Positions 19,382-60,049 of a stretch of 64,000 nt of DNA are shown one piece after another. Source of the DNA: Prorocentrum cordatum (Eukaryota; Sar; Dinophyceae; Prorocentrales; Prorocentraceae); contig CAUYUJ010015688.1 of NCBI GenBank assembly GCA_963575745.1, positions 1 through 64,000 of the forward strand, given 5' to 3'. Under the pieces are notes generated by a model, which worked only from the letters and a program-made list of their open reading frames with translations, was not told where the DNA came from and ran no database searches. The translations under genes and the position numbers were made by a program. Position 1 is the stretch's first letter. The number at the start of each line of letters is the position of its first letter.

Positions 19382-19654
19382 AACCCAAGCACCTCGTTGT
19401 GCTTCCGCCCACCCACTGCGCATCGCCGTCGCCGTCTACGAGAGACAGGGCATCTCTGAGAAGCGTCGGCTGGTTGCCAGACTGGGTCGCCCATGCAGCC
19501 GTAGGCTGCCCCCTGGGAGTCGCGATTCAAAGATAAACTTTCCCTTGATCCTCGAAGAATATAACACCCTAAACCCAAAGACTTTTGACATGGAATCCCC
19601 CCCTATGCTTCTCCGACGCAAAAACACGTGTGGAGCGCTCCGACCGCCTCTGGG

Positions 19655-32710: not shown

Positions 32711-32825
32711 CATTTTCTCTCACCGCAAAGGGATCGCTGCGTCTTATAAGAAGCGAATCACCGTCGCCGCACCTCGCCCTAGCGCCCCCTACTCCCCGCC
32801 ACCGCGGGTCACCAAGGGATGATTT

Positions 32826-34536
32826 TCACGACCACAAGCCTGTCCAGGGAGCTTGCTGACCCTGACCTCGCGCACCCCATTTCCCTCCCTTGCCGCGATT
32901 GTCGCGCGGCTCGCCGCCGCCGCGGCCTTGGGCGCCCGCGCCTTTCTGCTGCCCATGCTCTTTCCCCTTTCCTTTTGCGCCCTGCGTGGACTGCCTCCTT
33001 TCCCAGGTCCAACCGCGCCTGTCCGCGTTAGCCGCCCGCTTCGCCTGCGCTTGCGCAGTCCGCCGCACGTCAGCAGGCCCGCCCACGTAGATCATCAAGG
33101 GCATGTGTGCTCCACGTTTGAACATCTCTCGCTGGGGGTCGAACTTCTCGAACTGGACTGGCTTCTGTTTCGACGGCGGGGTTCCAGACCAGCTCCGCGA
33201 AGCGGACCCCGTGTCGGAGTTCACTCTGAACGGGAACATCGCCTTGTCATTCTTCGCGCTGTCCAAGACCTCCGCCACCGCGGGTGAGACCTCGTCGAAG
33301 ACAGGCGTGAAAGACCACTGAACGCACTTGCCCCTGCGTGCGGCACCTGCGGGTGGTAGCTGGTGTACGGGAACCCCTGGCCTAGAAAAGGGATGTTCGT
33401 GATGGGGTAGGGGCGTTTACCCGTCTCTCTGCCGTCCTGGTCGCGAAGGGTCTCCATAACCATGGGGCAATTCGCAGGCAGGTCGGGCCCCTCGATCCCG
33501 AACGCAGAGAGACCGCGGCACATCCGAATCCCTTCGCACGGCCCTACGCGGAAGATGCCACACGAGTCGGCTCGGACAAACCTTTCGCGCTGCTGTTGCC
33601 AAGGATACCACGCTGCCAGATTGATCTGGAAGCCGCGCGCCCGCAGTTCCGGCACAACAAGGAAGAGCGCCATGTTGAAGTCCCCGCAGAGAATGCGGGG
33701 GCGGAGCTCGGCCAAGTACCTCGCCAGCATGCAACTCTTTCTTCGCCGTCTTGTAGTTCAAGTGCACGTTGGCGAACCTGAGCTCATCGAAGTCCTGGTC
33801 ATCAGAATCGGCTTCTCCGCTACCGCGGATTCTCCAAAATCGCATCTTTGCAGATGCAATCATGATCCTGCTAACCGCGGTCTTCGTGACCTTGGTCTTC
33901 GCTTTGTCCTTCTTCGTGTGCGTGCATGTTCCATCCTTTGTCCGATGGAACACTAGCAGCCGCATCCCCGACACCAGGGACTCCCTGCCGCATATCATAG
34001 TGCTGTCGCCCTCCTCTGGGCCTCGCACACCTATGAACTTGGCTGCAGGCCGCTGCGCGCCCTTGGCGCTGTCTCCGCCCTTCCCTGGGTCTTGTCTCAC
34101 GTAGTCCAGCAGGTCGCTAGAAGCTTCCTGGATGACTAGGAACTGGCAGGAAGAGCTTTTTCAGATCTTGTTGCATGTGCGCATGCAGTTCTGGAACGGT
34201 CCACTTCCCGCCCCAGTTGGCGGTCAAGACGCCAGAGGTGCCTCCATGGCTACTGCCTTTGCCACCCTTTCCCTTCGCACCCTCCCCACCACCGCGGGTG
34301 TCAACCGTCCAAACATCAGCAGAGCACTCCGTCCCGTCATCCCACAGGGGCTTCAGCAGGAGGTCTGCGCCCGGTGGGATGTCATCCAGATCTCCTGGCA
34401 TGCCAGATGCGTCCGTCGGCGCATAAGTGGGCAAGCTTCTGGGGGTTGCGCGGTCATCGTCATCTGCATCGCGGCCAGCGGAGCCCCCTGAGGAAGCTCC
34501 ATGACCATGGAGGCGAGCGAGCTCTAAGGCGGGCAT
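32826..34536 (-). CDS. EEP-type nuclease-like protein, frameshifted
   Basis: Starts at ATG 34536. The N-terminal part (34536-34117) is acidic and Gly-rich. Frame changes near 34120, 33730 and 33290 join four stretches. Seen in order: an ELRFANVHLNYKTAKKEL-like segment (about 33730-33790 minus), then LCGDFNMALF with the family Asp codon at 33680-33682, and AWYPW just after. Endonuclease/exonuclease/phosphatase proteins use the GDFN motif for metal-dependent phosphodiester cleavage, as in AP endonucleases and LINE endonucleases. The C-terminal part (33278-32826) is Lys/Gly/Arg-rich, suggesting nucleic-acid binding. It is last in a one-directional minus-strand block. Whether the frame changes are lesions or sequence errors cannot be told. 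Confidence 0.6.
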
Positions 34537-34943
34537 GCTTGAGCCGCGACAGCAACTGTAATGACGATAGTTAGGGTCTCTGCATGTCGCTGCTGGAATA
34601 ATTACATGAATGAGGCGAGGGCGAGGGCGCGCAGGAGGGTGGCGGGGAGGAAAGGAGGGGGGGAGGAAGGGATGTAACCTAATTGGGGTCTTCTATTGTT
34701 GCGGGGACCGGGGTCCCCAATGGTTCGGGAAGGCAGGGGGGGTCGAGAGCAGCGAGGAGTCCCGGGGGGGGCCCTCGCGGAGCAGATTTTTTTCGGTGAC
34801 GCTCCAGAGGCCAGCAGCACTCGGCAGCACCAGCGCGCTCCGCCACCGCGGAGACGCCTCGCCGGTCACAGCGGCATCGCCGCCGCCGCGGAGGAATGTC
34901 TAAGCGCGGGTAATGCCCGGCAAAATCAGGGCAGGCGCATCGC
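34537..34943. other. intergenic spacer with polypyrimidine tract on the minus strand
   Basis: 34620-34680 reads as a C/T-rich tract on the coding strand just upstream of the EEP-like gene start. It also holds a perfect NACC stem-loop at 34838-34853. No gene seen. Confidence 0.6.
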
Positions 34944-35375
34944 CTAACACGCGTCTGGTCTCATTGTGCATGAACTGAGACAGCGCATCTTTTCGACCCT
35001 CCTGCAGGTCTGCGCCCAGTCCTCGCCGTGGGTCGCAGCCATCCGACTGTCCCATTCCGTCTTGAAGAACTCCCATTGGCTCGTTTGCTCAGGTGACAGT
35101 TCGGCAGCTTTCCGAAGAGCTTGTAATACCTGGAAGCGCGCTTTTTGGTGCTCCTTATTACCGCCTTTTTTGTTCCCTTGCCCCAGCTGCTCCAAGGAGT
35201 AAACTCTCATCTGCTCCATCGCCGTCACCACGGCTTCGGCCTCTCTGTTCCTTGCGGATCTTCTTGGGCTTCTCCGTCGCCTCGCGCAACTCACGCTTGA
35301 CGCGCGCCTTTTCTTTCTCCGCCGACATCTGCTCTTTAAACGCAAGCCTGGCGCGGCGAGCCTCAGCCTCCTCAT
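34944..35375 (-). CDS. C-terminal part of the transposase-like protein
   Basis: Frame continuing the DDE-like protein after a frame change near 35250: the charged coiled-coil-like tail ends with a conserved-looking QALRKAAELSPEQTSQWEF stretch and stops at 34944. The part of this frame above 35260 is a shadow. No catalytic motif of its own. Confidence 0.5.
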   Translation of the reverse strand: MRRLRLAAPGLRLKSRCRRRKKRRASSVSCARRRRSPRRSARNREAEAVVTAMEQMRVYSLEQLGQGNKKGGNKEHQKARFQVLQALRKAAELSPEQTSQWEFFKTEWDSRMAATHGEDWAQTCRRVEKMRCLSSCTMRPDAC

Positions 35376-36714
35376 CTTGCAATGCTGCCTGCAATTTGTC
35401 GTGAACCATCGGGTCCTCCTGGGAGAGCGCCTTGTGCCGCTTGGTTTCCCTGTGCAGAACTGACGTCACAGTGAGAGCAAGAGACGCACCCACCTGAGTG
35501 TTCATGTTGCGAAATATATGTAGGGCCTCCTGTAAAGATCTCATCCTGGACGACTCCTGACTCATACGTTCCGCCTGCTGGTCGTCCAAGGACATACCAT
35601 GCGCTGCCCTCTCCTCTTTGTCGCCATCACCATGGCTGTTCGGAGCACCTCCGGTCTTCGCAAAATCGATCGCAACTTCACCTGGATCCACCCAGTCTGC
35701 CGCGTCGAAATCCAGCACCTCCTCGGTGTCCTCATCGTCGGCGCCGTCGTCCTGATCGTCGGCGTCGTCGTCCGCTTTCGCGGCGCGCTCGTCCTCCTCC
35801 TCCTCCTCCTTTCGGGCCTCGTCCGTTTCCCAAGGGACTCTATCTGGGTCCGCGGTGGCTTCGTCTTCCTGGCCAATTTTCACCTCATCTAGGTGGCCCC
35901 TGCGAGGGTACGGCGTGATGAGCGACTGCGCAGTCTTGTAGTTCCAAAGCAAAAGGCCAGCAGCGTGCTTCTCCGCAACTTCCGCCACCGCGGAGTCAAT
36001 GCGGCTTCGCATGCCCATTTCATCCCAGAAGTCTTTGGCCTCTCTGCATATTTGATCATCTTCAGAACCGTCCAATGCGACCGTTGTGCCCGTGAGTTTG
36101 TATCCCTTACATGCTTGCACATGGAGAGTCCTATTGGAAATGACCTGTGCCATGATATCGATGTTCTCCTCTTTCGTCAGGTCCACCATGCCGCCGCCAC
36201 TGATTCGCGCTTTCTCGACAATCCTGGCCGTTTGCAGTTCAATGAACCTCTTGCGAATGTGCAAATGCAGGTCGGTATCATTTGTTTGGCAGACCATAGA
36301 AGCCCCACCACCGTGGGTCACGCAGATGTAGCCGCGGGCCCAGCACAAGCGTTGCGCATTATCAGTGAGACCAGGGGCGTACGCATCTAATAGAAACAAC
36401 TCCCACCGTCTGCCAGGGCCCCACGGTAACAACCACTTCTCTAGGCAATCCGACAGCCCCTCGCGGGGGCACTTGGCGGCGCAGGTGGGCACGGGTTGAG
36501 GGGGGCTGGTTCGTTTCAATGAGGTGGAGGGCATGTGGGAAGGGGGGGGGAGGAGGGAGGTGGGCAGATTGGAGGGGGGAGGGGGGAGACAGGGCGGGGG
36601 GGGGGCAGAAGGGAGGGCCCACTGCGGCACACGGCGGAGCCAAATGATCGAGGACGTCGTGCACTCGGTACGACCCGCTCGGCCCCGTCGCCACGGAGAA
36701 CTTGAAGGGCACAT
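35158..36714 (-). CDS. DDE-type transposase/integrase-like protein, second half
   Basis: Real homology-like sequence starts near 36490 after a C/T-rich stretch. WELFLLDAYAP carries a candidate second catalytic Asp (36385-36387). THGGGASMV and QTNDTDLHLHIRK follow, with candidate third acidic residues at 36277-36279 and 36271-36273. The layout matches the DDE superfamily of pogo/CENP-B-like transposases (PF03184-type), which cut and join DNA with three acidic residues. Downstream is a long acidic, coiled-coil-rich tail (35900-35250) with DDADDQDDG. Assigned from motif order only; the family match is moderate. Confidence 0.55.
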   Translation of the reverse strand: MCPSSSPWRRGRAGRTECTTSSIIWLRRVPQWALPSAPPPPCLPPPPSNLPTSLLPPPSHMPSTSLKRTSPPQPVPTCAAKCPREGLSDCLEKWLLPWGPGRRWELFLLDAYAPGLTDNAQRLCWARGYICVTHGGGASMVCQTNDTDLHLHIRKRFIELQTARIVEKARISGGGMVDLTKEENIDIMAQVISNRTLHVQACKGYKLTGTTVALDGSEDDQICREAKDFWDEMGMRSRIDSAVAEVAEKHAAGLLLWNYKTAQSLITPYPRRGHLDEVKIGQEDEATADPDRVPWETDEARKEEEEEDERAAKADDDADDQDDGADDEDTEEVLDFDAADWVDPGEVAIDFAKTGGAPNSHGDGDKEERAAHGMSLDDQQAERMSQESSRMRSLQEALHIFRNMNTQVGASLALTVTSVLHRETKRHKALSQEDPMVHDKLQAALQDEEAEARRARLAFKEQMSAEKEKARVKRELREATEKPKKIRKEQRGRSRGDGDGADESLLLGAAGAREQKRR

Positions 36715-37888
36715 GTCTGGATTCCGCGAATGTTTTCAATTTGCCCTCCAGCTGTTTACCCTCTGCCTTGAACATCAATTCGCACCCTGGCACTTCTCGC
36801 ATAACCCTTTCTCGGCAAGAATCCGTGACCGAATTCAAGCTCCAGCGCTGCCTCGTCGCCGCATGGTTTTCGATCAAGGGTGCTGTGACCGCGCTCGTCA
36901 GTGAAAGCGTGTTCCCCTCGCAGCTTCCCGCCTCGTTCATGTGGAATGGAGATTGGTCGACGTTCCGCATTTCTGGGTCGTACCCATGATGCAGCATGAC
37001 CATCTTCCGTAGTCTCGACACGATGACCCAGGAAAGAGACAGGCGTTCCGCCAAGACCACGCGCGGCACTTTGAATTTACGATTCGGCTTCCGCGAGGAA
37101 ATCCGGCACTCCCTCATGAAGCCAGCCAACCATCTACCGTTGATCTGCACGGTCTGAGGTGCCGTCTTCTTGTTTAGGTGGACCACATAATACTCTTCCT
37201 GTAGTTGCAGCGCTTTCGCCAACAGGACTTTCTTTGGGAAGCGGCACGTGACCTTCACGTCCACGCTGTGCCGCATGATGCTGTACGGCTCGGCCAATTG
37301 TTCCCGCAACGTTGCGCACGCCTTGTGTCTGCCAGCGCCCCAACATCTACGTCGCTTGAAGTCCCGAACTGTACAATTCGTCCCTTTTCTGTACTGCCAA
37401 CCCTTCTGGTCCGGACGGACGGGGCGCTCCGCCACCGCGGATGTCAGGAACTGTTGCACTGCGTGCTGGTATATTCTGAATACTCGCCTGTAATCGACCC
37501 AAGCCTTTTTTTTGTCTTTCAGAGCAAGGGGGATTTCTTTTCCCTGGGGCACGGCTAGACCGGTGACCTGGGCGACGGCGGGGTGCTCTGTGGCAAACGC
37601 CTTGAACAGACCGCGCGGGAATCTGCCGCGCTGCAATTGAGAAGAGGTCTTTCCGTCCAAGGGCCCTTTGTGCTCCTCCATCCATGCTAGGAAGTATTCC
37701 GCGGCCTTTCGCTTCTTAGGGAGGGGTGCGTCGCGGCCCAACAAGAACGTCGGCGCAAGTTTTTTTGTGCGTCTTCGCCTCCCCGTCATCTCGGGTCGCG
37801 TGCTCGCGAACCATGGCATTCGCGCACTCATCGGGCAGGCGCTTGAGCATGCCGACAATGATCTCCCGCGCCGCCGTGCGCAGGTCAC
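36362..37888 (-). CDS. DDE-type transposase/integrase-like protein, first half
   Basis: Useful sequence runs from about 37765 to 36640. A Lys/Arg-rich N-terminal half (possible DNA-binding region) is followed by YDPEMRNVDQSPFHMNE, where the Asp at 36956-36958 fits the first catalytic acid (N-x-D-Q-x-P is typical of pogo/Tc1-like DDE enzymes). Then come RQRWSLNSVTDSC and FSVATGPSGSYRVHDVLDHL. It joins the preceding OTU-like frame at an A7 run (about 37760-37766) by a one-base shift. It loses coherence in a G/C-homopolymer, pyrimidine-rich stretch (36520-36640), which could be an intron or an insertion. Confidence 0.58.
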   Translation of the reverse strand: MTCARRRGRSLSACSSACPMSARMPWFASTRPEMTGRRRRTKKLAPTFLLGRDAPLPKKRKAAEYFLAWMEEHKGPLDGKTSSQLQRGRFPRGLFKAFATEHPAVAQVTGLAVPQGKEIPLALKDKKKAWVDYRRVFRIYQHAVQQFLTSAVAERPVRPDQKGWQYRKGTNCTVRDFKRRRCWGAGRHKACATLREQLAEPYSIMRHSVDVKVTCRFPKKVLLAKALQLQEEYYVVHLNKKTAPQTVQINGRWLAGFMRECRISSRKPNRKFKVPRVVLAERLSLSWVIVSRLRKMVMLHHGYDPEMRNVDQSPFHMNEAGSCEGNTLSLTSAVTAPLIENHAATRQRWSLNSVTDSCRERVMREVPGCELMFKAEGKQLEGKLKTFAESRHVPFKFSVATGPSGSYRVHDVLDHLAPPCAAVGPPFCPPPALSPPSPLQSAHLPPPPPFPHALHLIETNQPPSTRAHLRRQVPPRGAVGLPREVVVTVGPWQTVGVVSIRCVRPWSH

Positions 37889-39572
37889 ATTTCCACCTCA
37901 AGGCCCGCGCCTCCTCTTCGCTGTAGTGCCTCTCTGCTTGCTGCGGCACCTCTAACAGGGCGCCCTCTGCGCCGCCATCACCATGGCGATGCTCCGTGGG
38001 GCGCGCAGCGACCAACGCCGCGCCCGCGGCATCTAACTCGTAGAGCCCCAAATGGTTATCGATCTCTCCCGTGTGCCGCAACATCGCCACGAAAGCTCGA
38101 TTGCCCGCGTGCTCGAGAATGTAGGCGCACAACTCGCAACGCAGAGCGTCCCGGTTCACGCTGCTGCGGTTCCAGCCGAGCATGAAACACATCACGTCGA
38201 GGCCACAATCTCCATCCGTAACTGTTGCAACGAGCTGCACGGAGTGCGACAAGTACTGCGCATAGAAAAAACGGGTCTCCTCGCACATGCTCTCGGCCAG
38301 GCTGGCGCCAGCAGGGGCGCCGCCACCATCGAGCGGGAAACCCGCCACCCAATGGTTGGTTCGCAGGGCCTCGTCATCCAACCCGCGGACTGAGCCATCA
38401 TCTCGGAACGCACAGGAGACAGCATGGCATTTTGCAACCACACTCACAGCATCATTGGCCCACGGAGCATACTTGACCAATGCATCTTCACATGTGTCCC
38501 CGTACCAAAGAAAGACGCGCGCGCGATACCGCAACGCAGAAATCACGAACATGGCGATTCCGATGTATCCGCGGGGCTCTTCCATAGCAATTGCGACCCT
38601 ATTCAACTCTGCTGCCGCCCTCTCGTTGTGCACCCCGCTGGCTGCGACAAGATTCTCGACGGGGTCCACGTCTTCCACGTTTGTGACATCGATGTCGCAC
38701 CCCGCAACCGCGGGTAGCTGCAGTGGAGGGACCTTCGCTGGCGCGACCGCTGCCGCCGCTTCTGGTGGCCTAGGCGCGGCACAGGGAATGAACAACAACG
38801 CGGCCCTTTCAGGCGGCGCGACGACTTCTGCGGATGAGGACGTGACAGCAGGCGGCGGCGCGGGAGCCACCGCTGCTAAGTCCGCCACTGGGGGTTGCAG
38901 AGATGGCTGCGGTTGTGGCGGAGGTGGCGCCTCCTCCGCCACTGAGGGTGGCAGAGGTGCCGCCACTGGGGGTGGCAGAGGTGGCTCCGGTTCTTGCGGA
39001 GGTGCCGCCACTGGCGGTTGTGGCGGAGGTGCCGCCACTGGGGGTGGCAGAAGTGGCTTCGGTTCTGGCGGAGGCGCCGCCGCTGGCGCTGGCTGCTGCG
39101 CTGCTGGCGTTGGCGCTTCGGGCGCCACTGGGGGTGCCAGAGGTGCCGCCACTGGGGGTGGCGGAGCCGCTGCTGCTTCGGGCGGAGGCGCTGCTGCTTC
39201 GGGCGCCAACTCCGCTACCGCGGAGGCCGGTGGCGCCGTGCCCGCCCCAGGTGCCGACCCCGCCACAGGTGGTGCATCGAGTAGTCGCACGTGGTTCGGA
39301 GGGGACAGGCGACGCCCATATTTAGATGCGGGGTATTTGGCCGAGCACGGAGCAGCGGCGCACACGTGCAAACGGAGACCAGGCGTCCACCCTTTTGAGT
39401 CACAAAAGCAACAGGAAGCCCAGCCGTGTACCCCAGCTGGGCGCTTCGTCGGGAGCGAAGGTTTCTGCTCCCATTTGGCCTTGAAGATTTTCCCAGATTC
39501 GTCAATCACGCGGAATTCCCCAAGATACTTTGCTACCGTTTCAACGGTGGGCTGGTCAGCCTGCGCGGACAT
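37716..39572 (-). CDS. OTU-type cysteine protease-like protein, likely fused to the DDE protein
   Basis: 618-residue frame. N-terminus: a Cys/His-rich patch (CCFCDSKGW ... LHVC ... C), about residues 50-85. Residues 110-260 are a Pro/Ala-rich PPPVAAP repeat. Residues 440-500 contain TDGDCGLDVMCFMLGW followed by ALRCELCAYI, the arrangement of OTU proteases (D-G-x-C with nucleophile Cys, codon 38205-38207, followed by an R-x2-L-R-x2-V/C-type helix). OTU enzymes cleave ubiquitin-like tags. The catalytic His is not certain; HLGLYEL is a candidate. The end of the frame runs into the DDE-like frame through an A7 run, so both may be one protein. OTU call moderate. Confidence 0.55.
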   Translation of the reverse strand: MSAQADQPTVETVAKYLGEFRVIDESGKIFKAKWEQKPSLPTKRPAGVHGWASCCFCDSKGWTPGLRLHVCAAAPCSAKYPASKYGRRLSPPNHVRLLDAPPVAGSAPGAGTAPPASAVAELAPEAAAPPPEAAAAPPPPVAAPLAPPVAPEAPTPAAQQPAPAAAPPPEPKPLLPPPVAAPPPQPPVAAPPQEPEPPLPPPVAAPLPPSVAEEAPPPPQPQPSLQPPVADLAAVAPAPPPAVTSSSAEVVAPPERAALLFIPCAAPRPPEAAAAVAPAKVPPLQLPAVAGCDIDVTNVEDVDPVENLVAASGVHNERAAAELNRVAIAMEEPRGYIGIAMFVISALRYRARVFLWYGDTCEDALVKYAPWANDAVSVVAKCHAVSCAFRDDGSVRGLDDEALRTNHWVAGFPLDGGGAPAGASLAESMCEETRFFYAQYLSHSVQLVATVTDGDCGLDVMCFMLGWNRSSVNRDALRCELCAYILEHAGNRAFVAMLRHTGEIDNHLGLYELDAAGAALVAARPTEHRHGDGGAEGALLEVPQQAERHYSEEEARALRWKCDLRTAAREIIVGMLKRLPDECANAMVREHATRDDGEAKTHKKTCADVLVGPRRTPP

Positions 39573-39723
39573 GCGCGCTCGCCGAGGCGCGCCTCGCCAC
39601 CGCGAGCTGCGCCGCCACCGCAGCGAAATCGCGCCCCGGTGGAAACTGTGACCCTACACAGCGCGCGGCTTTGAAGCATAAACGGCGTTGGAGTCGAGCA
39701 AGAGGAGCAAGAATAAGAACGCT

Positions 39724-40191
39724 CGCGGGTGACCCGGCCGCCGTCGGCCTCCTTAACGAGCCACAGAAAAGTTTCATTCAGTTTTTGGAATTACGGATCG
39801 GCTTTTCTATTGTGGACAATACAGGACTCCCCAACGCTTTCGCGGGTGACCCGGCCGCCGTCGGCCTCCTTAAAGAGCCGCAGAAAAGTTTCGTTCAGTT
39901 TTTGAACTTACAGGTCGGCTTTTATATTGTGGACAACACAGGACTCCCCAACGCTTTCGCGGGTGACCCGGCCGCCGTCGGCCTCCTTAAAGAGCAGCAG
40001 AAAATTTTCATTCAGTTTTTGGAATTACAAGTCGGCTTTTCTATTGTGGACAATACAGGACTCCCCAACGCTTTCGCGGGTGACCCGGCCGCCGTCGGCC
40101 TCCTTAAAGAGCCATGGAAAAGTTTCATTCAGTTTTTGGAATTACAGGTAGACTTTTCTATTGTGGGCAATGCAGGAGGCGGAGGAAGATG
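39724..40191. repeat. 117-bp satellite, four units, open in the plus frame
   Basis: Units start at 39724, 39841, 39958 and 40075 (exact 117-bp steps) with CGCGGGTGACCCGGCCGCCG. 117 is 39 codons, so one frame stays open and would give a 39-residue repeat with GDPAAVGLLKEPQKSFIQF. The opposite-strand neighbours and lack of flanking domains make real coding doubtful. Another one and two-thirds units lie at 46644-46835. Confidence 0.9.
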
Positions 40192-40483
40192 ATGCAAGGG
40201 AGGCGTCTTTTCATCGCGCGCGCTTCGGACGAGGCATTCGAGCTGCGTTTGTAACCGCGGGAACTACAAGGGGCAAGCCATGTGTCACTGCGTGCTAAAA
40301 CGTCCTGCTTGTGGCAACCCCAGCCCTCCATGACCATGGGGCCAAGTGCAGGAGTCTTGAAACCCTGAGTCACGCACTGACGTTTTCTAGGAATGACTTG
40401 CCGTCCTTGTTCGCCTGTTCGGAGACCCCCCTGATCTCCCGAGCCCCGTTGCGAGCGCAGGGAACACCATTACCATGGCGTCT

Positions 40484-41154
40484 CTACGCGCCGCCTGAAG
40501 CGCCGCTTGGCCCCGCCGAGTCTGGAGAAACCATCGGGGCGCCCTTCAGCATGTTCTGCACGTATAAGTACCTCACCGCCCAGTCCAGATCGTTCAAATG
40601 GAACCAAATCTGCTTGCGATCCTCGATGAAGAGCTTGATCTTGCGGACCTCCTGGCAGAGAGGATCCTGCTCGGGGCACCGCTCGGGCATGCTCACCGTG
40701 ACCACGGTGTTTTTTTCACGTGGTTCTTGTAGTAGCGGGTGCGCTTTGCACCCTGCACTCCTGCCACCTTGGTGCGGTCTGTGTCGGCCCCGCCGTTCTG
40801 GTCGATCTCGGCCATCGGGTCGTAGTCTTCCCCCTGCACCTCCGCCTCTTGGGCGTCTGGCGCCTCCGGCGCTTCGTCGCCGTCGCAGAGCTTCTCCACG
40901 TGGGTACGCAGGTCGGCGAGTAACGAGGTGCGCCCAAACGAACTCTGGGAGTACTTCGTCGAGCCCGTTGTAAGGCCGATCAGCCACTGGTCTGTGAAAG
41001 CCAACTTCACAAACCTCTCCTCCACCGAGGAGCTTGGAGAGCGAACGACCTTGGAGACGAGAGGCGCAAACTTGCCGCTGTGGCCCCCGCGCACGTGAAC
41101 CTGACCGAACTGAAACTCGAGGGGCTTGAACTTTGGGAGAGCGAACCCTGCCAT
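40484..41154 (-). CDS. unrecognised protein B, conserved-looking, one frameshift
   Basis: Starts at ATG 41154 (MAGFALPKFKPLEF). A compact N-terminal domain (41154-40900) is followed by an acidic linker. The frame changes at a T7 run (about 40710-40716), right beside a perfect 6-bp NACC stem-loop (40694-40709), and continues with RKIKLFIEDRKQIWFHLNDLDW to a stop at 40484. Length would be about 220 residues. I recognise no family. Its upstream side has a polypyrimidine tract and a cluster of palindromes. Confidence 0.55.
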
Positions 41155-41281
41155 TTTCGAGGCTGCTCCGCAACCGCGTAGACGCGGCCGGGGAAATCCG
41201 CAACCGCGAAAAGGTCGCGAGTCTCCGCCGCCGTGGATCCAGCTTGAGCCACTGCGGGGGGCCGACGGAACGACACCGTGT

Positions 41282-41392
41282 GACAACCATCGCCAGGCGA
41301 TGGTTGTCACCCGGCGATGGTTGTCACCCCAACACCCATGACAACCATCGCCAGGCGATGCTTGTCACCCCAAGACGTTGACAACCATCGCC
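41282..41392. repeat. cluster of GACAACCATCGCC palindromes
   Basis: A perfect 27-bp hairpin (GACAACCATCGCC, A, GGCGATGGTTGTC) at 41282-41308, a further right half at 41313-41325, a second hairpin with one mismatch at 41340-41366, and a left half at 41380-41392. They lie between protein genes B and C. Two partial copies sit upstream of another gene at 50038-50062. Confidence 0.93.
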
Positions 41393-41399
41393 AGGGGGG

Positions 41400-41600
41400 G
41401 ACTTCCGGAGCCCTTCCAGGATAATTCGGCGCCGTCCGGCGGGCAAGGGGGGCGCGGAGAGGAGAGGCGGGCGTCGAGGCAGAGGCGCGGAGGGGAGAGG
41501 CGGGCGTCGAGGCAGAGGGCGGCTGCATGCAAATCGCACGTCGAGAGAGAGGAACGTGAAGAGGAGGGGGAGAAAGTGATGCGCAGGAAGAGGAAACATA
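41400..41600. other. polypyrimidine tract on the minus strand between genes C and B
   Basis: About 200 bp strongly G/A-rich on the plus strand, hence C/T-rich in the direction of transcription, with a 59-bp tandem pair (GGCGGGCGTCGAGGCAGAGG at 41465 and 41498). It could serve as a splice-acceptor tract. Confidence 0.5.
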
Positions 41601-41721
41601 GCATTTTTCGCGCCGCGCTTGACGCCCTCGCACGGATGCTCGGACACGGCCCTCGCCACCGCGAGTGCTTCTACGACGCCGCCACCGCGGAGAATATGCT
41701 CCGCCACCACTTCAGACGCCC

Positions 41722-43080
41722 TCACTTCCAGTCCGAGCGCCACCCCCACTTCTTCCACTGCTCCTTCTCCTCCGCGGAAGGCTCGGCTGCCGAAGCTGCC
41801 CCGCCTGCGGCGGAACTGCTGGCGCCACCGCTGCTGGGCCACTCCCAGCCCTCCCAGTCTCCGCCGCTCTCCTCCCAGTCTCCGCCGCGGGACCAGGCGG
41901 GCTCTTGCTCCGCCGCTCTCTTCCACTCGCTGCTCCACCAGTCTGCGCCGCTCCACGCACCGTCCGCGCGCGAGGCGGGCTCCTGCTTCGCCTCCCACCA
42001 GGCCGCCTTCGCCTCCCACCAGGCCTCCCACGAGGCTGCCTGCTGAGCCCCCTCTCCTGCAGCGGCGCGCGACGGAGGTCCCGAAGCGTCGGCCTGCGGG
42101 GGGGCCTCTGGCTGGCCCAACTCCGCCACCGCGGATCCCTGAGGGGCTGGCCCAACTCCGCCACCGCGGATCCCTGAGCCAGTACCGCGGTAGGACTGCT
42201 CGTAGTTCCCTGTCGTCTTGTTCTTGTACGTGCCTTTGCCGTCCGTCTTGCCTTTCCCCGCCCTTGGCGGCCCAGGCAGGACGAGGCCACTGTCGACAGT
42301 GGCTACCTCCACTTTGTTGTTCGTGAGGCTGGTGTGGAACCTGGTGACGACGTTGTCCGTGCGGTGCACGTGGTAGTCCCAGATCGGAACGGGAGCTCCT
42401 TCGGCGAAAGGCCTTCCCATGGCACGCGCGGCGTGCCAGCGCTTGTGGTCGTGCCCGCCTATGGCCTCGCACGTGATGCGCGTGACGCCCACCGAGGGAT
42501 CAGGTCCCAGAACTCTGTCCTTCACCTCTGGTTTGAAGGCTGCCAACATTTGCCGCCATGACCATGGCTGCGTCTGTCCGACCTTGAAACTGTATGCCAT
42601 TCCCGAGGTGCGGTCGAGCACTCCTATGTCCATGGGGTCCACTTCGGTGATGTCGACCTGGTGCGTTGTTGGAAAGCCTGGGGGGTTCTCTGAGGTGTCC
42701 CTGATCCACTTCAGAGCGGTGTTGTTCCTGTTGAACGGCTGCGTCACGGGAAGCGCGTCCAGGTCTGCTCGCGTCGCCGCCACCGCGGCTTGAGCACCGC
42801 CTCCCGCCGCCACCGCGGCTGGAGCGCCACCTCCCGCCGCCGCCGCGGCTGGCTCCAGCCCTGGCGGGATACCAAGTCCTGCAGGCCGTGGCTCCGCCAT
42901 CGCGTCTTCTTGGGGGCTCTCGGCCCAGGTCGCCAAGCCGTCGGGCGGCGGAGCCCAGGGGCGGCGCCTTGCCGAGCGGGCCCTGGGGCCCCGGGTGTTG
43001 GTTCGTTTGTCGTGAGCTCTGGCGAGCTCCGCGCGGGCCTCGTTGGCGCCACCCGCGAAAAGTCGCTCTTGGGCCGACAT
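41722..43080 (-). CDS. unrecognised protein C (WD/Trp-rich C-terminus)
   Basis: Intact frame of about 450 residues from ATG 43080 (MSAQERLFAGG). The middle (about 42750-42240) looks like a folded domain with PFNRNNTALKWIRDTSENPP and HVHRTDNVVTRFHTSLTN. The C-terminal third is low complexity, rich in Trp, Glu, Gly and Ala (EWWEAKAAWWEAK style). Five NACC stem-loops lie inside it, read as SAVAE or GIRGGG depending on frame. A 35-bp tandem duplication (42122-42170 region) carries two of them. The function is unknown to me. Confidence 0.6.
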   Translation of the reverse strand: MSAQERLFAGGANEARAELARAHDKRTNTRGPRARSARRRPWAPPPDGLATWAESPQEDAMAEPRPAGLGIPPGLEPAAAAAGGGAPAAVAAGGGAQAAVAATRADLDALPVTQPFNRNNTALKWIRDTSENPPGFPTTHQVDITEVDPMDIGVLDRTSGMAYSFKVGQTQPWSWRQMLAAFKPEVKDRVLGPDPSVGVTRITCEAIGGHDHKRWHAARAMGRPFAEGAPVPIWDYHVHRTDNVVTRFHTSLTNNKVEVATVDSGLVLPGPPRAGKGKTDGKGTYKNKTTGNYEQSYRGTGSGIRGGGVGPAPQGSAVAELGQPEAPPQADASGPPSRAAAGEGAQQAASWEAWWEAKAAWWEAKQEPASRADGAWSGADWWSSEWKRAAEQEPAWSRGGDWEESGGDWEGWEWPSSGGASSSAAGGAASAAEPSAEEKEQWKKWGWRSDWK

Positions 43081-43496
43081 GGCTGCGTCGGAGGAGAACA
43101 GAATCGTTCGTCGCCGCCGCCGCCGTGTCGGTCGCCGCCGCCGCCGTGTCGTCGCCGCCGCCTCAGGGAGAGGCAACGTAATCCCCCCAGTCTGTGTCGG
43201 AATCGTCTTCTGGGTCCGTGATCGCCATTCTGCACCGCCGCAGAACTCGACCCCAATCGGGAATAACGAATCCTCCCGGGAATAGGGTTGAGAGAACGAG
43301 GCCGAACACGGTCCGATATCGCGGCGCCATCCGCCGAGCCCACGAACAAGTCCGAGCATCGACAGCAGCAACCCGAATGAAGGCCTCCCTATCTCGGGCG
43401 GCAAGCGTTTCCTCATCGTCGCAATGTGAGATTGTTGCTTCCCCTCGCGGGAACAAGCCCGCCATGTGCGATATGCAAGACTCGAGCTGAAAAGCG

Positions 43497-43930
43497 CTCT
43501 GGTAAGAGTACGAGTACGAGTACGAGTAAGAGTAAGAGAAAGAGTAAGAGTGAGACTCAGGGTGATTAAGAGTAATAGTACGCGTACGGGTAAGAGTCAG
43601 AGTCAGAGTAAGAGTAAGAGTAAGAGTACGTAAAGGTAAGAGTACAAGTAAGAGTAAGAGTACGAGTGAGAGTATAACGTAAAGGTAAGAGTACGAGTAC
43701 GAGTAAGAGCAATATTAAGAGTAAGAGTAAGAGTAAGAGTAAGAGTAGACCTCAGAGTTTAAGTAAGAGTAAGCGTACGAGTGAGAGTCAGAGTGAGAGT
43801 GAGAGTCAGCGTGAGAGCGGGAGCAACAGTAAGAGCACGAGTAAAAGACGAGTAGGAGTAGGAGTGGTGAGGAGGAGTAAGAGTAAGAGTAAGAGTGGGA
43901 GTACGGGTAAGAGTGGTGAGGAGGAGTAAG
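43497..43930. repeat. hexanucleotide repeat GAGTAA/GAGTAC
   Basis: About 430 bp of degenerate AGAGTA/ACGAGT hexamers between genes D and C. On the gene strand this is TACTCT/TACTCG, a pyrimidine-leaning tract just upstream of gene C. Confidence 0.93.
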
Positions 43931-44106
43931 ATTAGGACAATCCCTCCTAACTGTCCTGCTCCCCTTTTTTCTGCGCGCGCGTCCGCCGAAGCCCCGCGGC
44001 CGCGGGCGACTGCGCAGAGACTGCTACATACTTCACCGCGACCGCGGGTTATTAATTACCTAATCAGACTTCCCCCGCAACCGCGGGTGCGCCAGAGCCC
44101 TACCCG

Positions 44107-46383
44107 CTACCTGAGTTGCGCCACCCGGGCTGCTTGCCAGTTTTCTGGCACCACTTCTCCGCGCGCACCTCGCGATTGTCCTGGCGCATCTTGCCCTTCC
44201 CTTTCGCGCGGCGGGACGCAGTGGAGCCGAAAAAGATAAATCTTTTTCGTGTGGTCTGCGACATGGCGCGGCGGCTTCTCCTTCGACATCTGGATGGTGG
44301 GCCAGCCTCGCGATCTGTCCGCCCCCTCCCCGCCCAGGTACGCACGCTGGCCAACCGCACTCTGCGCGTGGTCGATCGCCTTTTCGACTGCAGCGGGCAA
44401 GGCCTCGACCCCGTCACCGCGGGTGATACTGTAGCCACCGCCCTCCAGCCGCTCCTTCACGCTGCCGACAGGCCCCACGATGAACATAGCGGTTGCCGAG
44501 TGGGTCTCGGCGTGAGCGTCGAAATGCAGAGTGGCGCACGCTCTCACCTGCACAAATGTGCGCGTCGCAACGAGGAACTCGTCGAGCTTGTCCGCGAAGT
44601 GGCCAGCCACGAATCGAACTGACTTCCGTCCAATGCAGTCGACGACCTTCGTCCAGTTGTCCGCCACCGCGGAGTCGATGGGCTGATCGCCACCTGGGGT
44701 CAGACTGACCACGGCCACCTTGATGGACACCATCTGCTGGATACTCACGGCCAAAGAAAACTCGCCGAACGTAATCTGGCCGACCCCAGGCAGGTTCAGA
44801 AACTGCTGCGCACCCACCTCTGACACGAACCCATCCCGCCCTGCCAGTAGGAACGGCCCTTGGTCAGAGCAGAGGAAGGGCACCTCTGCGCGCCCCTCGC
44901 CCTCTGCGCGCCCCTGGCCCTCTGCGAGGCCCTGCGTCAGCATGTCTTGGAGCTCTTTCCTCTGCTCTACTGTAGAGCACCGCACCAGTAGCATATGAGG
45001 ACCCTGGTTGCGCAGGTCGCTCGCGATCTCAGGGAGGTTGGCCCCTTCGGCAACGTCCACGTACACGCACTGAGCCTGTCCAAAGCCAAAGTCGTCGCGC
45101 GCAGCAGACCCCTCCGCGACCGCGGAGCTCTCCGCGACCGCGGAGCTCTGCTGTTCCGAACTCTGCGTGGCCTCCCACTGCCGCCAAGCGTGCCAGTGCT
45201 CCTGCGCCTGCTGCTGCTGCTGTTGGGCCCAAGCAGCCCAAGAGCTCCCAGTCCAGACCGCTGGGGGCTGTCCCCGCGCAGGCGAGGGGGGGGCGGGCAC
45301 TCCGAAAGCGGCGGCCTGTTCCGTTTGCGACCGTTGGCTCCCGGGTTGTGCACGTGGTGCTGCCGCGTCCGCTTCTTCGCTCGTGCTGCGCCTGCTGCGC
45401 CTGCTGCTGGTGGTGCTGGTGCTGCTGCTGCTGCTGCTCTTCCCCCGCTTCCCCGCCACCGCGGCTCCATCGCGTGGAGACGCCGCCGCAACCGCGGCTC
45501 CTTCTGAGGCTGGTGCGGCTGGCTTGCGCGGCTGACTGGCTGATGCGGCTGAGGCCGCTGCCTGCTGCAGTCCCCGCGCGCGCTCCTCGGCGCCGCTGGT
45601 GCCGCTGGCTGCTGCCACCATGGCGCTCCGCGGCGGAGGAACCCCACGCGGCCCGCGGCCCGGCTTCGCCGCTGCCGCCGGTGCTGCCGCGCCCGCTTCT
45701 TCGTCCGGGTGGGAGTGCGAGTCCGAGTCCGACGAGTACGAGTCCGACGAGTACGAGTCGGCCCCCTTGGTCGCGGGCTTCGGCGGACGCTCCTTCGGGG
45801 CCTGCTTCGGCGGACGCTTCTTCTCCGCTACCGCGGATTTCTCCGTGGCCCCCTTGGGCGCGAGCTTCGGCAGACGCTCCTTCGGTGCCTGCTTCGGCGC
45901 CTCCTCCAGTCTCTTCTTCCGCTCCCTGTCCTTCTTGGGCAGACGCCTCCTCTTTGCCGCCTGCTGCTGCGCCTCCTGCGGCGCCTGCTTCTTGTCCTTG
46001 TCCTTCCTGTCGTTGCTGCCCTTCTCCGCTACCGCGGATGTCTCCTTCTCCTTTTCCTTCCTCTCCTTCTTCTCCTTCTTGCCGTCCTTGTTCTTCTCCT
46101 TGTGGTCCTTGTCCTTGTGGTCCTTGTCCTTCTCCGCTACCGCGGATTTCCCCTCCTCCTCCTTGTCCTTCTGGTCCTTGTCCTTGTCCTGGCGCCGAAC
46201 GAGCTGCGCCCTCGGCCGCTTTGGCTCGGCTGGCCCGGCTTTCGCTCGTGCCGCGAGTTGCGCTTTCGGGCGGCTGCTCGGCGGGCTGCGTCGCCTGTGG
46301 CGGCGGGCCGACGAACTGTCGAGCGAGCTCGGCTCAACGCTGGTCAGTTTTGGGCGTTTCGAACGCGGGGATGCGCTGCTCAT
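44107..46383 (-). CDS. unrecognised protein D, Lys-rich with a C-terminal domain
   Basis: Long intact frame of about 758 residues from ATG 46383 (MSSASPRSKRPKL, a nuclear-signal-like basic start). Residues about 40-200 are KDK/KEKEKK-rich, a likely disordered nucleic-acid-binding region, with an S-D-S-Y-S repeat. Residues 350-450 are Gln/Ala-rich. The last 300 residues look globular (GPHMLLVRCSTVEQRKEL, GRKSVRFVAGHFADKL, HFDAHAETHSATAMFIVGP). Ten stem-loops with NACC loops sit inside, six encoding SAVAE in frame. Expected partners unknown; it lies second in the one-directional block. No family recognised. Confidence 0.62.
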   Translation of the reverse strand: MSSASPRSKRPKLTSVEPSSLDSSSARRHRRRSPPSSRPKAQLAARAKAGPAEPKRPRAQLVRRQDKDKDQKDKEEEGKSAVAEKDKDHKDKDHKEKNKDGKKEKKERKEKEKETSAVAEKGSNDRKDKDKKQAPQEAQQQAAKRRRLPKKDRERKKRLEEAPKQAPKERLPKLAPKGATEKSAVAEKKRPPKQAPKERPPKPATKGADSYSSDSYSSDSDSHSHPDEEAGAAAPAAAAKPGRGPRGVPPPRSAMVAAASGTSGAEERARGLQQAAASAASASQPRKPAAPASEGAAVAAASPRDGAAVAGKRGKSSSSSSTSTTSSRRSRRSTSEEADAAAPRAQPGSQRSQTEQAAAFGVPAPPSPARGQPPAVWTGSSWAAWAQQQQQQAQEHWHAWRQWEATQSSEQQSSAVAESSAVAEGSAARDDFGFGQAQCVYVDVAEGANLPEIASDLRNQGPHMLLVRCSTVEQRKELQDMLTQGLAEGQGRAEGEGRAEVPFLCSDQGPFLLAGRDGFVSEVGAQQFLNLPGVGQITFGEFSLAVSIQQMVSIKVAVVSLTPGGDQPIDSAVADNWTKVVDCIGRKSVRFVAGHFADKLDEFLVATRTFVQVRACATLHFDAHAETHSATAMFIVGPVGSVKERLEGGGYSITRGDGVEALPAAVEKAIDHAQSAVGQRAYLGGEGADRSRGWPTIQMSKEKPPRHVADHTKKIYLFRLHCVPPREREGQDAPGQSRGARGEVVPENWQAARVAQLR

Positions 46384-46439
46384 GCCCCCCCTCCCCCACA
46401 CTCCGTCACCGCGAAGATGGGGCAGAGGGGCTCGAGGCT

Positions 46440-46640
46440 GCACGGCTGCGGAAGGAGGAGCGAGGAGGGGCAGGAGGACGCCAGAAAGGAGAAAGGAGGA
46501 GGGCGGAGGACATGGGACAGGGAAAAGGCAGGAGGAGGAGAGCGGAACGCAGGAGCAGGAGAGCGGAGGGCAGAAAGGAGGAAGGAGGAGGGCGGAAAAG
46601 GCAGGAGGAGGAGAGCGGAGAAGGCAGGAACGAAGGGCGG
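46440..46640. other. polypyrimidine tract on the minus strand upstream of gene D
   Basis: About 200 bp of GGAGGAGAGCGGA-type purine repeats on the plus strand, giving a C/T-rich tract before gene D when read in its direction. It is directly followed by the second copy of the 117-bp satellite. Confidence 0.55.
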
Positions 46641-46643
46641 AGG

Positions 46644-46835
46644 CCGCCGTCGGCCTCCTTGAAGAGCCACAGAAAAATTGAATTCAGTTTTTGGAATTAC
46701 AAGTCGACTTTTCCATTGTTGGCTCTACAGAACTCCCCAACGCTTTCGCGGGTGACCCGGCCGCCGTCGGCCTCCTTATAGAGCCACAGAAAAGTTTCAT
46801 TCAGTTTTTGGATTTACAGGTCGACTTTTCTGCGC
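46644..46835. repeat. 117-bp satellite, second site
   Basis: Two partial units offset by exactly 117 bp (CCGCCGTCGGCCTCCTT at 46644 and 46761), same strand as the array at 39724-40191. The two sites bracket genes B, C and D. Confidence 0.88.
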
Positions 46836-46907
46836 GCGGCGCTCTCTGCCTCGGAGCGCTGGTATGTGGTGAATCGCTCCGCCACCGCGGATCGAGACCC
46901 GACCTAC

Positions 46908-47937
46908 TCACTTCTTTTTCGGCTTCTTCTTCTGGGGCGCCGCGATCTGGTCGAAGGCGGTCTGCTGCGTCGTGGCTTTTCGTTTCTTCGTCGTGGGGGC
47001 GCCGTCAAATTGTGCGACAACCTCTTGCCCCGCCTTGATTGGGGCCTTGCTGACGATGCACGGCAGCTTCACTGAATACGTGGACACCATAGGAGCCACC
47101 TCGGCCTCGGCAGTCTTCAGATGAACGTAATCACTCGCCCAAACTTGTTTCGCCGTCTCCATCGCCGCGGAGGCGTTCGCCTCGCAGTGGTGGTCTGTGA
47201 CGGCGTTCCCCTTGTGGTCACTGCGCTTGATGAACCAGAACGGGTGGACTGAGTCCCTCGGGTCCCATACGAACCCTGCGTCACCCTCCTTCGGGAGTCT
47301 GAGCTCAGGCTGCACGTGAATCCTCACGACCACCTCTTCCCCGCTTTCGACGCCAGCTTCTTCTTCTGCCTCGGCAATGGTTTTTACCCACGACACCTCT
47401 GCGCAAGCGGCTTTCGGGTGGATGAAGGCGCCCGGCCCCTCCATGACCATGGGCGCGTCCTTCTTGAACCACAATGGCACCTTCAAGTGCCCCACGGGAA
47501 TGTCTCGTGGCCACGGCCTTGACCACGCTGCCGCTCTTGATCATCGCGATAGGGATTTCGCATGTCATGTGGTCGTGGTTAGCGGACATGGCTAACGCCA
47601 GTACCTGCTCGGCAATCTGCTTGTCGTCCGAGGCGCAGGCAGAGCGCGCCCACTCGCGCCATGGAATGGTATCCACTTTGTCCCCGCTCGCTACTCCTAC
47701 TGCGGCAGACACTGTCTCGTGCGCGGTCGAAGCCCTCCCTTCTGCGTCCTGCTTGATTACCTTGGGCGTCAGAGTCTCCGTGACCACGGAGCTCTTGCCC
47801 TTCGGCCCGGGGGAAGGCGACTGCCCCTTATCATTCGGGTCGTCCCACAATTTCCCTACTTCCTGCGTCAGGTCCGTCTCCCGCGGAAACTGAGGCATGT
47901 CCGCCTTTGTCAACCCAGCCTTTCCCAATGACATCAA
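46908..47937 (-). CDS. unrecognised protein E, possibly the C-terminal half of F
   Basis: Two overlapping frames: 47937-47540 (KADMPQFPRETDLTQEVGKL, then IPWREWARSACASDDKQIAE) and, after a shift near 47510, 47495-46908 (HLKVPLWFKKDAPMVMEGPG through SVKLPCIVSKAPIKAGQEVV to a Lys-rich end). The closing part, with S-V-K-L-P-C and I-K-A-G-Q-E-V-V, faintly recalls the end of SET-domain methyltransferases, but I see no other SET motif and do not claim it. Sequence before 47937 continues toward the next frame upstream, so E and F may be one gene with an intron at about 48060-48290. Confidence 0.5.
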
Positions 47938-48054
47938 CTCCCGTAGCTTGGTCGCGATGAATGAGCTGCAATCCTTTGCGATCGCGCCCTCCTGCTCCCT
48001 GACAGACTTGCCGTCGCTGGGATTCTTCGGGGCCGCGAAAATCAGACAGCCCCA

Positions 48055-48295
48055 CTATGGGGGCGGAGGGGTCTCGAACTGCTTCCGACGGAAATGGGGG
48101 GAGGGGAACAACATGCAAGAGCAGGAAGAACGAACGACGAGGGGAGGTGAGGGAGGTGAGGGACAGAACCACTCTTGGGGAGAGGTGGAGGAAACGGACG
48201 TTGAGGGGAGGGGAGGAGTACAATTGCGAGGGGAAGAAGGGGAGAGGACGATGCTGACGAGCAGGGGGGCAGCGGTAGATAGCGCAGCTCTGCGG
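48055..48295. other. possible intron or polypyrimidine spacer between F and E
   Basis: About 240 bp that are C/T-rich in the gene direction and have no protein-like frame, while protein-like sequence is found on both sides. This fits an intron or intergenic splice-acceptor region, but I cannot fix borders by eye. Confidence 0.4.
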
Positions 48296-48329
48296 ATTTT
48301 TGCCATGACATTGACCTCCACCTCCGCAA

Positions 48330-49504
48330 TCCACTTGCACCGCAACTTCTCGGAAGTCGGCCCCTCCACTACCGCGGATGCCATTTTTCCCAGCTGCAGG
48401 AATGCACCCTCTACTTCCTTCAAGAAATCATACATCTGGAACCTCGATTGCTTCTGGAATCTGTGCGCAATGCTGGGGGAGGGGGGGGGGGGGGGGGGAT
48501 CTGGCAAAACCCTCTGGTGGGCGGCTGCTTCCAAGCCCGCTTGAGGCAGGCGTTCTTGAGTTTGGGGAACTCCTCAGGGTAGGGCGCAATCACGCCATAG
48601 GCCTCCATGCGCGTTTTGCGCACCGTCGGGTTCACGAACACACCCGTGAACGAGAACATGTCTTTCATGTGAATACTGCCCTCCCCTCCTGCATCACACA
48701 CCAATTTGAATAGGTGCAGGAAGTCAGGATGGCCGATGTCCGCCCCATGCAAATCGATGAGCTTGTCCCTCACTGGCTCGAAAGGCACGCATCCGTGGGG
48801 GTCTGTTTTGCACAAACCCACCAGGGTCGACAGGATCTCCAGGTGGCCCGTTTTCATGGCAGTTTCGTTCTTCTTGTTGAGTGCGATGCTGATTACTAGA
48901 GCTGCTTCGGGCCCCTCTTCGTCCATCCTCCAAGACAGAATCTCCCACTCCAAGCCGCCTTCGCACTGAGAACCCCACTCACCATCGTGAGCTCGCACTT
49001 TCTCCAAATTGTAGTTTCCCTTTTCGTCCAAAAGTGTCGAAAACTTGCAATCGCACTTGGCCTGCTCGGCCCCGCCACCGCGGGTCCCCGAGCACTCGCA
49101 TCCTTTTTTGTTGCCCAAGATGTTGCGGAAAGAACAATTCAGACGGCTGTGCGACAAACTACCATACTTCGCTGGCTGGCGGGATTTGCCATGCAGGGCC
49201 ATGTCCGGACCTGCCAAGATCTTCTTCGCAAAGTTGTCTTGTATGACTGTGTCGCTGCCCCCCGCCAACGCGGTTTTTCTCCCACGAGCACACCGTTGCT
49301 GTTTGCATCTATGGGGTCGTGCCCATCCTTCATGATGCTATATATAATTTGGTTCGTACGCAACGATTTCACTGGATCGCCGCCGCGGTTCTGAGGGCGA
49401 GGCGCAATCTGAAACGGCGCCGCGACCTTCTTCGACTCAACCCTGAATCGAGCTCGGTACGCGATGCTTCTTTTGATGATTTGGGCGAACGATTCGTCTG
49501 CCAT
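48330..49504 (-). CDS. unrecognised protein F with Cys-rich patch
   Basis: ATG at 49504 (MADESFAQIIKRS). The frame shifts by one at a G-run (about 49258-49265) and continues to 48420 with a Cys-rich CECSGTRGGGAEQAKCDCKF patch (about 49110-49050) and a globular-looking second half. A G18 homopolymer at 48480-48499 breaks the frame, after which KQSRFQMYDFLKEVEGAFLQL (48440-48380) and KLRCKWIAEVEVNVMAKIR (to 48300) continue it. No family recognised. It is upstream-most in the minus block, preceded by a 300-bp polypyrimidine tract. Confidence 0.5.
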
Positions 49505-53658: not shown

Positions 53659-53685
53659 AGCCATCAAGGAGACGATGGTGGGGAC

Positions 53686-59138: not shown

Positions 59139-59214
59139 GGCCAGACCTGCCAAGCCATCGGACCACGTGTTCCCCGAATCGGTTTGGAAAGCCTTCGGGG
59201 AACACGCGGGCGTC

Positions 59215-60045: not shown

Positions 60046-60049
60046 TAAC

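Follow-up and report, generated by a model that had tools for sequence, protein, structure and literature searches.

Dispersed NACC-loop hairpins with covarying stems in a family of large Prorocentrum DNA transposons

DNA transposons are thought to need little beyond their ends and a transposase, and to our knowledge no Tc1/mariner/pogo (ITm) element carries dispersed hairpins in its interior. Here we describe such hairpins in a 64,000-nucleotide stretch of Prorocentrum cordatum DNA (positions 1 to 64,000 of contig CAUYUJ010015688.1; hereafter the window), where they recur along one copy of a DNA transposon with terminal inverted repeats (TIRs). The element resembles ITm transposons in its TA target site and TIRs and in a predicted Mos1-like DDE fold, with weak traces of HTH_Tnp_Tc5 and DDE_1 in some relatives, but differs from them in its length of 17.6 kb, a further gene and the internal hairpins themselves. 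Searches of the open-access PMC literature, judged by titles and abstract openings, turned up no such hairpins inside any DNA transposon, and within that scope the system is apparently undescribed.

In RNA viruses and hepatitis B virus, dispersed RNA packaging signals take the form of many stem-loops along the genome that have a short loop motif in common (excerpts of PMC6281560 and PMC7612645). The window element likewise carries many stem-loops that share a loop motif and face one way, but these lie in a DNA transposon with no known capsid or binding protein, and their use as RNA is presumptive. Mobile mitochondrial GC clusters and hairpin elements are short repeated hairpins (excerpts of PMC4478555 and PMC2800124); the units reported here share this form and show some unit-sized length differences between copies, but they are found in one transposon family, in one orientation, at largely conserved positions, and include a hairpin in coding sequence that aligns without a gap. 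Introners of Prorocentrum cordatum are whole introns with inverted repeats of 8–20 nt near both ends (excerpts of PMC10666404). They too place inverted repeats in genes, in what is likely the same genome, whereas the entire NACC unit spans 12–16 bp and is kept in coding sequence. We rejected an identity of the units with spliced introns, since homology-supported coding blocks continue straight through them.

Hairpins along the transposon and its copies

A first-pass annotation of this DNA had reported about 41 mini-hairpins with an NACC loop, confined to one gene block. The family is real: between 32795 and 49084 the plus strand carries 40 perfect stem-NACC-stem units with stems of at least 4, compared with 3 on the minus strand, and 200 dinucleotide shuffles of 32601–49200 gave a mean of 1.11 (maximum 4). 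Stems of at least 5 were present in 32 units (shuffle mean 0.33, maximum 2) and of at least 6 in 9. The units are as follows.

32795–32808, plus: NACC hairpin
33272–33283, plus: NACC hairpin, shared with distant family L105 (site 33277)
33454–33465, plus: NACC hairpin, shared with distant family L105 (site 33459)
33816–33829, plus: NACC hairpin
34497–34512, plus: NACC hairpin
34838–34853, plus: NACC hairpin
35221–35234, plus: NACC hairpin, coding block
35623–35636, plus: NACC hairpin, coding block, read HGDG
35981–35994, plus: NACC hairpin, coding block, read SAVAE, shared with distant family L107 (site 35987)
36304–36317, plus: NACC hairpin, coding block, over a conserved THGGG peptide; may be coincidental
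37428–37441, plus: NACC hairpin, coding block, read SAVAE
37973–37988, plus: NACC hairpin, coding block, read HGDG
38701–38714, plus: NACC hairpin, coding block, read PAVAG
39210–39225, plus: NACC hairpin
39593–39606, plus: NACC hairpin
40328–40339, plus: NACC hairpin
40467–40478, plus: NACC hairpin
40694–40709, plus: NACC hairpin
41017–41032, plus: NACC hairpin
41652–41665, plus: NACC hairpin
41679–41690, plus: NACC hairpin
42122–42135, plus: NACC hairpin, left member of a 35-bp tandem pair
42157–42170, plus: NACC hairpin, second of the 35-bp tandem pair
42555–42568, plus: NACC hairpin
42776–42789, plus: NACC hairpin
42806–42819, plus: NACC hairpin
44036–44047, plus: NACC hairpin
44074–44087, plus: NACC hairpin
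44660–44673, plus: NACC hairpin
45112–45127, plus: NACC hairpin, left member of an 18-bp tandem pair; C6002 and C852 have one unit here
45130–45145, plus: NACC hairpin, second of the 18-bp tandem pair
45453–45464, plus: NACC hairpin
45485–45498, plus: NACC hairpin
45824–45837, plus: NACC hairpin
46025–46038, plus: NACC hairpin
46133–46146, plus: NACC hairpin
46878–46891, plus: NACC hairpin
47441–47452, plus: NACC hairpin, coding block
47776–47791, plus: NACC hairpin, coding block, read SVVTE
49071–49084, plus: NACC hairpin, coding block, read RGGG

The first loop base was C in 21 units, G in 9, T in 6 and A in 4, bearing out the earlier remark that all four bases occur there, and the unit, given before as 12–16 bp, could be refined to a motif of about 16 bp, CNCCRYNACCRYGGNK. 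In the 41 units behind this consensus, which include one at 32346 outside the element, position −6 was C in 39 and position +9 was T or G in 38. Stems varied while staying complementary, as had been claimed: among 43 plus-strand matches of CCnnNACCnnGG in 32601–49200, 38 had complementary inner dinucleotides and 33 a complementary fifth pair (expected 18.7 and 14.8, respectively), values reached by none of 20,000 shuffles each. Single units folded as RNA as expected (for example, the unit at 34838, minus strand, −11.7 kcal/mol), and Rfam had no match within the window. Among plus-strand hairpins of the element with a 4-nt loop and a stem of at least 5, the three bases after the first loop base were ACC in 32, followed by CGT in 6; four of these six lie inside a 117-bp tandem array and two in like sequence, so that the 117-bp repeat and its relatives account for every CCGT-loop hairpin. 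The array itself occupies 39723–40177 (3.9 copies), and the like sequence lies at 46647 and 46764 (46647–46780).

The "gene block" proved to be one copy of the transposon (32535–50140). Seven further copies or part copies in the same genome carry 17–42 plus-oriented units each and 1–3 in the other orientation: 42 in C1474, 39 in C1753, 33 in C3669, 37 in C6002, 33 in C852 (which has stretches of N), 25 in C115 (10.5 kb matched) and 17 in C3943 (7.2 kb matched). A further copy, C20610, has 21 units against 1 opposite in 10 kb. The flanking DNA retrieved around the seven copies holds 0–2 hairpins per copy, and the true boundary is the transposon rather than the block. Each of the 40 window units has a counterpart at its own alignment position in one or more other copies, and 31 of the 40 have one in the diverged copies C6002 or C852. 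By copy, the window units covered and shared were 37/40 (C1474), 34/40 (C1753), 26/40 (C3669), 21/25 (C115), 14/15 (C3943), 26/39 (C6002) and 20/38 (C852).

Hairpins extend to more distant families (L105, L107 and L108), alignable at only 61–70% DNA identity. On the motif strand we found 8 in 10 kb of L105, 6 in 10 kb of L107 and 2 in 7 kb of L108, with none on the opposite strand, and the core CCRYNACCRYGG was fitted by 8/8, 4/6 and 2/2 of them, respectively. Some lie at window positions (33277 and 33459 in L105, 35987 in L107) and others elsewhere. A genome-wide family, by contrast, was rejected. The genome scan that the first-pass annotation had proposed, carried out with the commonest arm form only (TCCGCNACCGCGGA), gave 406 matches compared with 467 for the reversed control, and among the 100 matches listed of the 406, 63 fell within seven contigs bearing transposon copies. 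In viral contigs, 68 stretches had one match each; the NACC-hairpin background there was 134 in 581 kb over both strands with those 68 subtracted, and no transposase relatives were found in these contigs.

We compared divergence inside and outside the units at sites defined in a third copy, which avoids the bias of sites found in one of the compared copies. Between C6002 and C852, divergence was 0.102–0.135 in stems, 0.18–0.21 in the loop ACC, 0.29–0.36 at the free loop base and 0.25–0.26 in flanks, and comparisons with flank divergence of 18–26% gave 0.09–0.14 for stems and 0.15–0.21 for ACC, from third-copy site sets that overlap and are not independent. Units change between copies both by substitution and by unit-sized insertions, the latter mostly in repeats. 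Tandem multiplication was seen as the 18-bp and 35-bp pairs of the window, a 30-bp triple in C6002 and a 66-bp spacing in C852. A few sites show unit-sized gaps of 13–18 bp between copies, one being an 18-bp unit of C3669 missing from five other copies; by eye, most such gaps fall in tandem or low-complexity sequence. L105 (position 5673) and L108 (position 4715) have in common a 7-bp hairpin, GGACCGT-AACC-ACGGTCC, inside the transposase. The window family lacks it and reads VIVSR where L105 and L108 read TVVTV, in a gap-free alignment, so gain or loss there involved no insertion. Separately, in a lysine-rich open reading frame (ORF) near window position 46190, L093 and L084 (C3669 and C852) have insertions of 15–18 bp with a complete hairpin that is absent elsewhere.

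A pairing imprint in related proteins

Homology-supported coding blocks of the two genes searched hold 10 of the 40 units. Four are read in an AVA frame (35981, 37428, 38701 and 47776) and four in an HGDG or RGGG frame (35623, 37973, 36304 and 49071), in agreement with the earlier view that several reading frames tolerate the units; the use of at least two frames argues against a peptide motif as the cause. The hairpin at 36304–36317 coincides with a conserved THGGG of the transposase, and HGGG is present in 134 of 226 relatives.

These 226 protein relatives, mostly from ENA, JGI and other entries, were kept from searches with the transposase and with the 47022–49634 gene, and their hairpins were inferred from amino-acid sequences. 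AVAE occurred 227 times (10.4 expected; 6 for the reversed word) and SAVA 166 times (8 for the reversed word); AVAA, at 136, was rarer than its reverse AAVA (253), which is itself part of AAVAy. Examples of xAVAy include SAVAE, TAVAV, AAVAA and PAVAG. With the codons NCC GCG GTN GCG GNN, base 1 of codon 1 lies opposite base 2 of codon 5, so that pairing should couple S to E or D, T to V, A to A and P to G. Outer residues were complementary at 145 of 372 non-redundant sites (94.5 expected; 0/20,000 shuffles) and, under a looser redundancy filter, at 246 of 586 (149 expected; 0/2,000 shuffles). Nine of 12 control cores had more than 20 pairs, with ratios of 0.48–1.36, none significantly above its own shuffles; all other cores pooled gave a ratio of 1.04, a small excess reached by 0/300 shuffles, and other distances 0.98. 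Of 263 raw complementary sites, 165 are expected from the composition of the same proteins. The inner pair was complementary in 547 of 624 words (457 expected), with A-A in 499, V-T in 19, T-V in 25 and M-M in 4, compared with V-V in 5 and T-T in 2. Relatives of the 47022–49634 gene alone gave 26 xAVAy words (2 reversed) and 7 xTVVy words (0 reversed).

Because outer residues covary as base pairing predicts, the fold appears to be maintained at the nucleotide level. The constraint on a folded unit proposed in the first-pass annotation thus gains support from arm covariation, from stems and loops that diverge less than their flanks and from the imprint in proteins. The interior of the element thus appears to be under nucleotide-level constraint, with a base-pairing imprint in more than 200 related proteins, and xAVAy peptides with covarying flanks offer a simple diagnostic for such elements from protein data alone; if the hairpin reading is true, xAVAy is expected to be encoded by NCCGCGGTNGCGGN with complementary arms.

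A proposed transcript code and its alternatives

We tentatively favour the reading that the units are recognition hairpins in the transposon's own sense transcript, with a GGUN loop on a short stem read by a protein, which seems quite possible but far from assured. The hairpins keep one orientation relative to both recognised genes (40 versus 3), and between diverged copies their stems and loop are more conserved than the flanks. The fixed orientation, the GGU(N) that is invariant on the sense strand and the arms that change but still pair all suggest a transcript hairpin recognised through its loop. Because the hairpins are oriented with the genes and their arms differ without losing complementarity, the fold may be used as RNA rather than DNA. 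The sense RNA of the element would fold many GGUN-loop hairpins, and a protein of element or host would read the loop on its short stem. Many sites per transcript would permit cooperative coating of the RNA, for which, or for marking, tens of sites per molecule seem naturally suited, and such coating could label the RNA as the element's own, to be exported, protected or used locally by the transposase. HIV-1 SL2-like GGUG loops are a nucleocapsid target; the phrase 'GGUG tetraloop' had no match in the open-access PMC literature. The broader proposition, that a whole superfamily of DNA transposons, in a dinoflagellate and in the organisms behind its protein relatives, writes a self-recognition code in its own RNA, using covarying GGUN-tetraloop hairpins and a dedicated reader, is more doubtful. 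If true, it would mean about 40 hairpins per element in the window family, inside genes and elsewhere, by which element RNA is told from host RNA, and a packaging-signal-like system in a cut-and-paste transposon; it would imply a reader, and a stage in the life cycle of such elements, that are new to science.

Several observations weigh against the transcript reading. G-U states in the DNA copies did not favour the sense strand, with 20 distinct states on that strand, 20 on the other and 32 other mismatches at the inner four pairs, and 5, 11 and 14, respectively, at the fifth pair. In the relatives, G-U-type words outnumbered C-A-type words by 39 to 17, compared with 42 to 46 for controls whose central residue is L, I or G (p 0.010); a central-A control, which partly overlaps the motif, nevertheless gave 144 versus 23 and would remove this excess. 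Two Watson-Crick states among homologous copies were found at 7 site-pairs only. The CCAT form, which makes up 8 of 43 left arms in the window, is nearly absent in relatives (MVM in 4 of 624 words), and unit density in L105, L107 and L108 is below that of the window. The window copy and C3669 show near-neutral decay (stem 0.047/0.065, ACC 0.080/0.095, flank 0.070/0.069). As stems here resemble flanks and the loop is no less diverged, we infer that dead copies decay and that constraint acts in active lineages. Finally, the one structural hint from the element, a weak predicted ParB/KorB-like match, would suggest DNA binding.

That hint bears on an alternative we consider somewhat less likely, in which the units are DNA sites, dispersed inverted repeats that would be bound, double-stranded or extruded as hairpins, by an element-encoded ParB/KorB-like protein that works in partition, spreading, silencing or transposition. 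Like KorB operators and parS sites, the units are short inverted repeats on a mobile element, here with a possible ParB-fold protein; their arms covary, however, their orientation is fixed and the ParB match is weak. Micro-mobile units, multiplying within the transposon as the folded unit inserts or is copied, as the first-pass annotation had suggested by analogy with mitochondrial GC clusters, would account for the 13–18-bp gaps, the C3669 unit absent from five copies, units of 15–17 bp in C852, the tandem multiplication and the positions at which families differ. Comparison of copies with and without a unit did reveal such gaps, but at few sites and mostly in repeats, whereas every window unit is shared with another copy and most with C6002 or C852; the L105/L108 hairpin arose or vanished without an insertion, and units are scarce outside the element. 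Little therefore supports this explanation, which we regard as improbable.

Hairpins without function could also be left by mutation, for instance by template switching at quasi-palindromes, which is known to perfect inverted repeats. We think this very improbable, given the lack of a genome-wide excess, the fixed ACC loop and CC/GG ends, and conservation in diverged copies. Still less credible is selection on a peptide motif such as SAVAE with the hairpin as by-product: xAVAy is the commonest reading and abounds in relatives, but homology-supported coding units use two or more frames, AVA as well as HGDG or RGGG, and the outer residues covary as base pairs do.

The element, its genes and the rest of the window

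The remaining features of the element are listed below.

32535–50140, minus: 17.6-kb TIR DNA transposon, both recognised genes on the minus strand, matched by C1474 and C1753, TA target site
32535–32563, plus: left TIR, the 3' end of the element relative to the genes
50114–50140, minus: right TIR, last base of GGATTA altered in the window copy
32595–32613, plus: subterminal repeat GACATCACATGCCCTGCCC, second copy at 32649–32667
50061–50079, minus: subterminal repeat GACATCACATGCCCTGCCC, inverted
34903–39572, minus: transposase gene with a predicted mariner-type DDE domain, frame changes in the window copy (tblastn, weak Pfam matches, fold match of a relative to Mos1)
47022–49634, minus: gene of unassigned function, frame changes in the window copy (tblastn, 46 relatives, VIA-align)

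Contig C1474 aligns to 32535–50140 at 96.4% identity and C1753 to 32535–50143 in three pieces. TA flanks the element on both sides in C1753 and C1474, the TIRs are imperfect (27–29 bp), and window positions 31054–31755 are an uninterrupted relative of the repeat that the C1753 copy interrupts. A search for short non-autonomous derivatives with the left end of the element gave at least 22 matches in at least 12 contigs, 11 of which have a transposase match, from a set of at least 41 such matches.

Homology to the transposase by tblastn falls in three blocks (34903–36513, 36611–38843 and 39222–39572). Pfam matches among 23 relatives were weak (HTH_Tnp_Tc5 in 7, best E 0.0021; DDE_1 in 2, best E 0.019), and the fold of one relative matches Mos1, consistent with a predicted transposase with a mariner-type DDE catalytic domain. 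The best named relative is a Prorocentrum cordatum protein (93% identity over 48% of the query), one of two from this species among the relatives. The product of the 47022–49634 gene is weakly ParB/KorB-like by VIA-align in its N-terminal part and also has a Cys-rich segment (CEC...CDC) and a helical part that is conserved; its family of 46 relatives matched no Pfam family convincingly. ORFs of the window copy likewise had no convincing match in Pfam and NCBIfam, and a PDB sequence search with one ORF returned none. Exons could not be drawn from codon-position periodicity between copies because only 1 of 118 windows of that scan exceeded the coding cut. By eye, we noted an OTU-like motif (DGDCGLDVMCFML; DGDCG) upstream of the DDE domain (37719–39653, minus) and, in an ORF further downstream (33224–33757, minus), the motif CGDFN, which is endonuclease-like. 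A GTAAGA-like hexanucleotide is repeated about 69 times inside the element at 43502–43914.

The window belongs to contig C14839 of a 4.13-Gb assembly in 21,875 contigs; the Prorocentrum cordatum genome has been described as 4.15 Gb with a mean of 59.7% G+C (excerpts of PMC10666404). To the right of the element, 50520–64000 holds long plus-strand ORFs and seems to be what the first-pass annotation called a retroelement, a label that we could not confirm, as five of these ORFs gave no convincing Pfam match. CCCTAAA telomere repeats open the window, and an interstitial CCCTAAA-like array lies at 19276–19383, about 19 kb from the telomere end.

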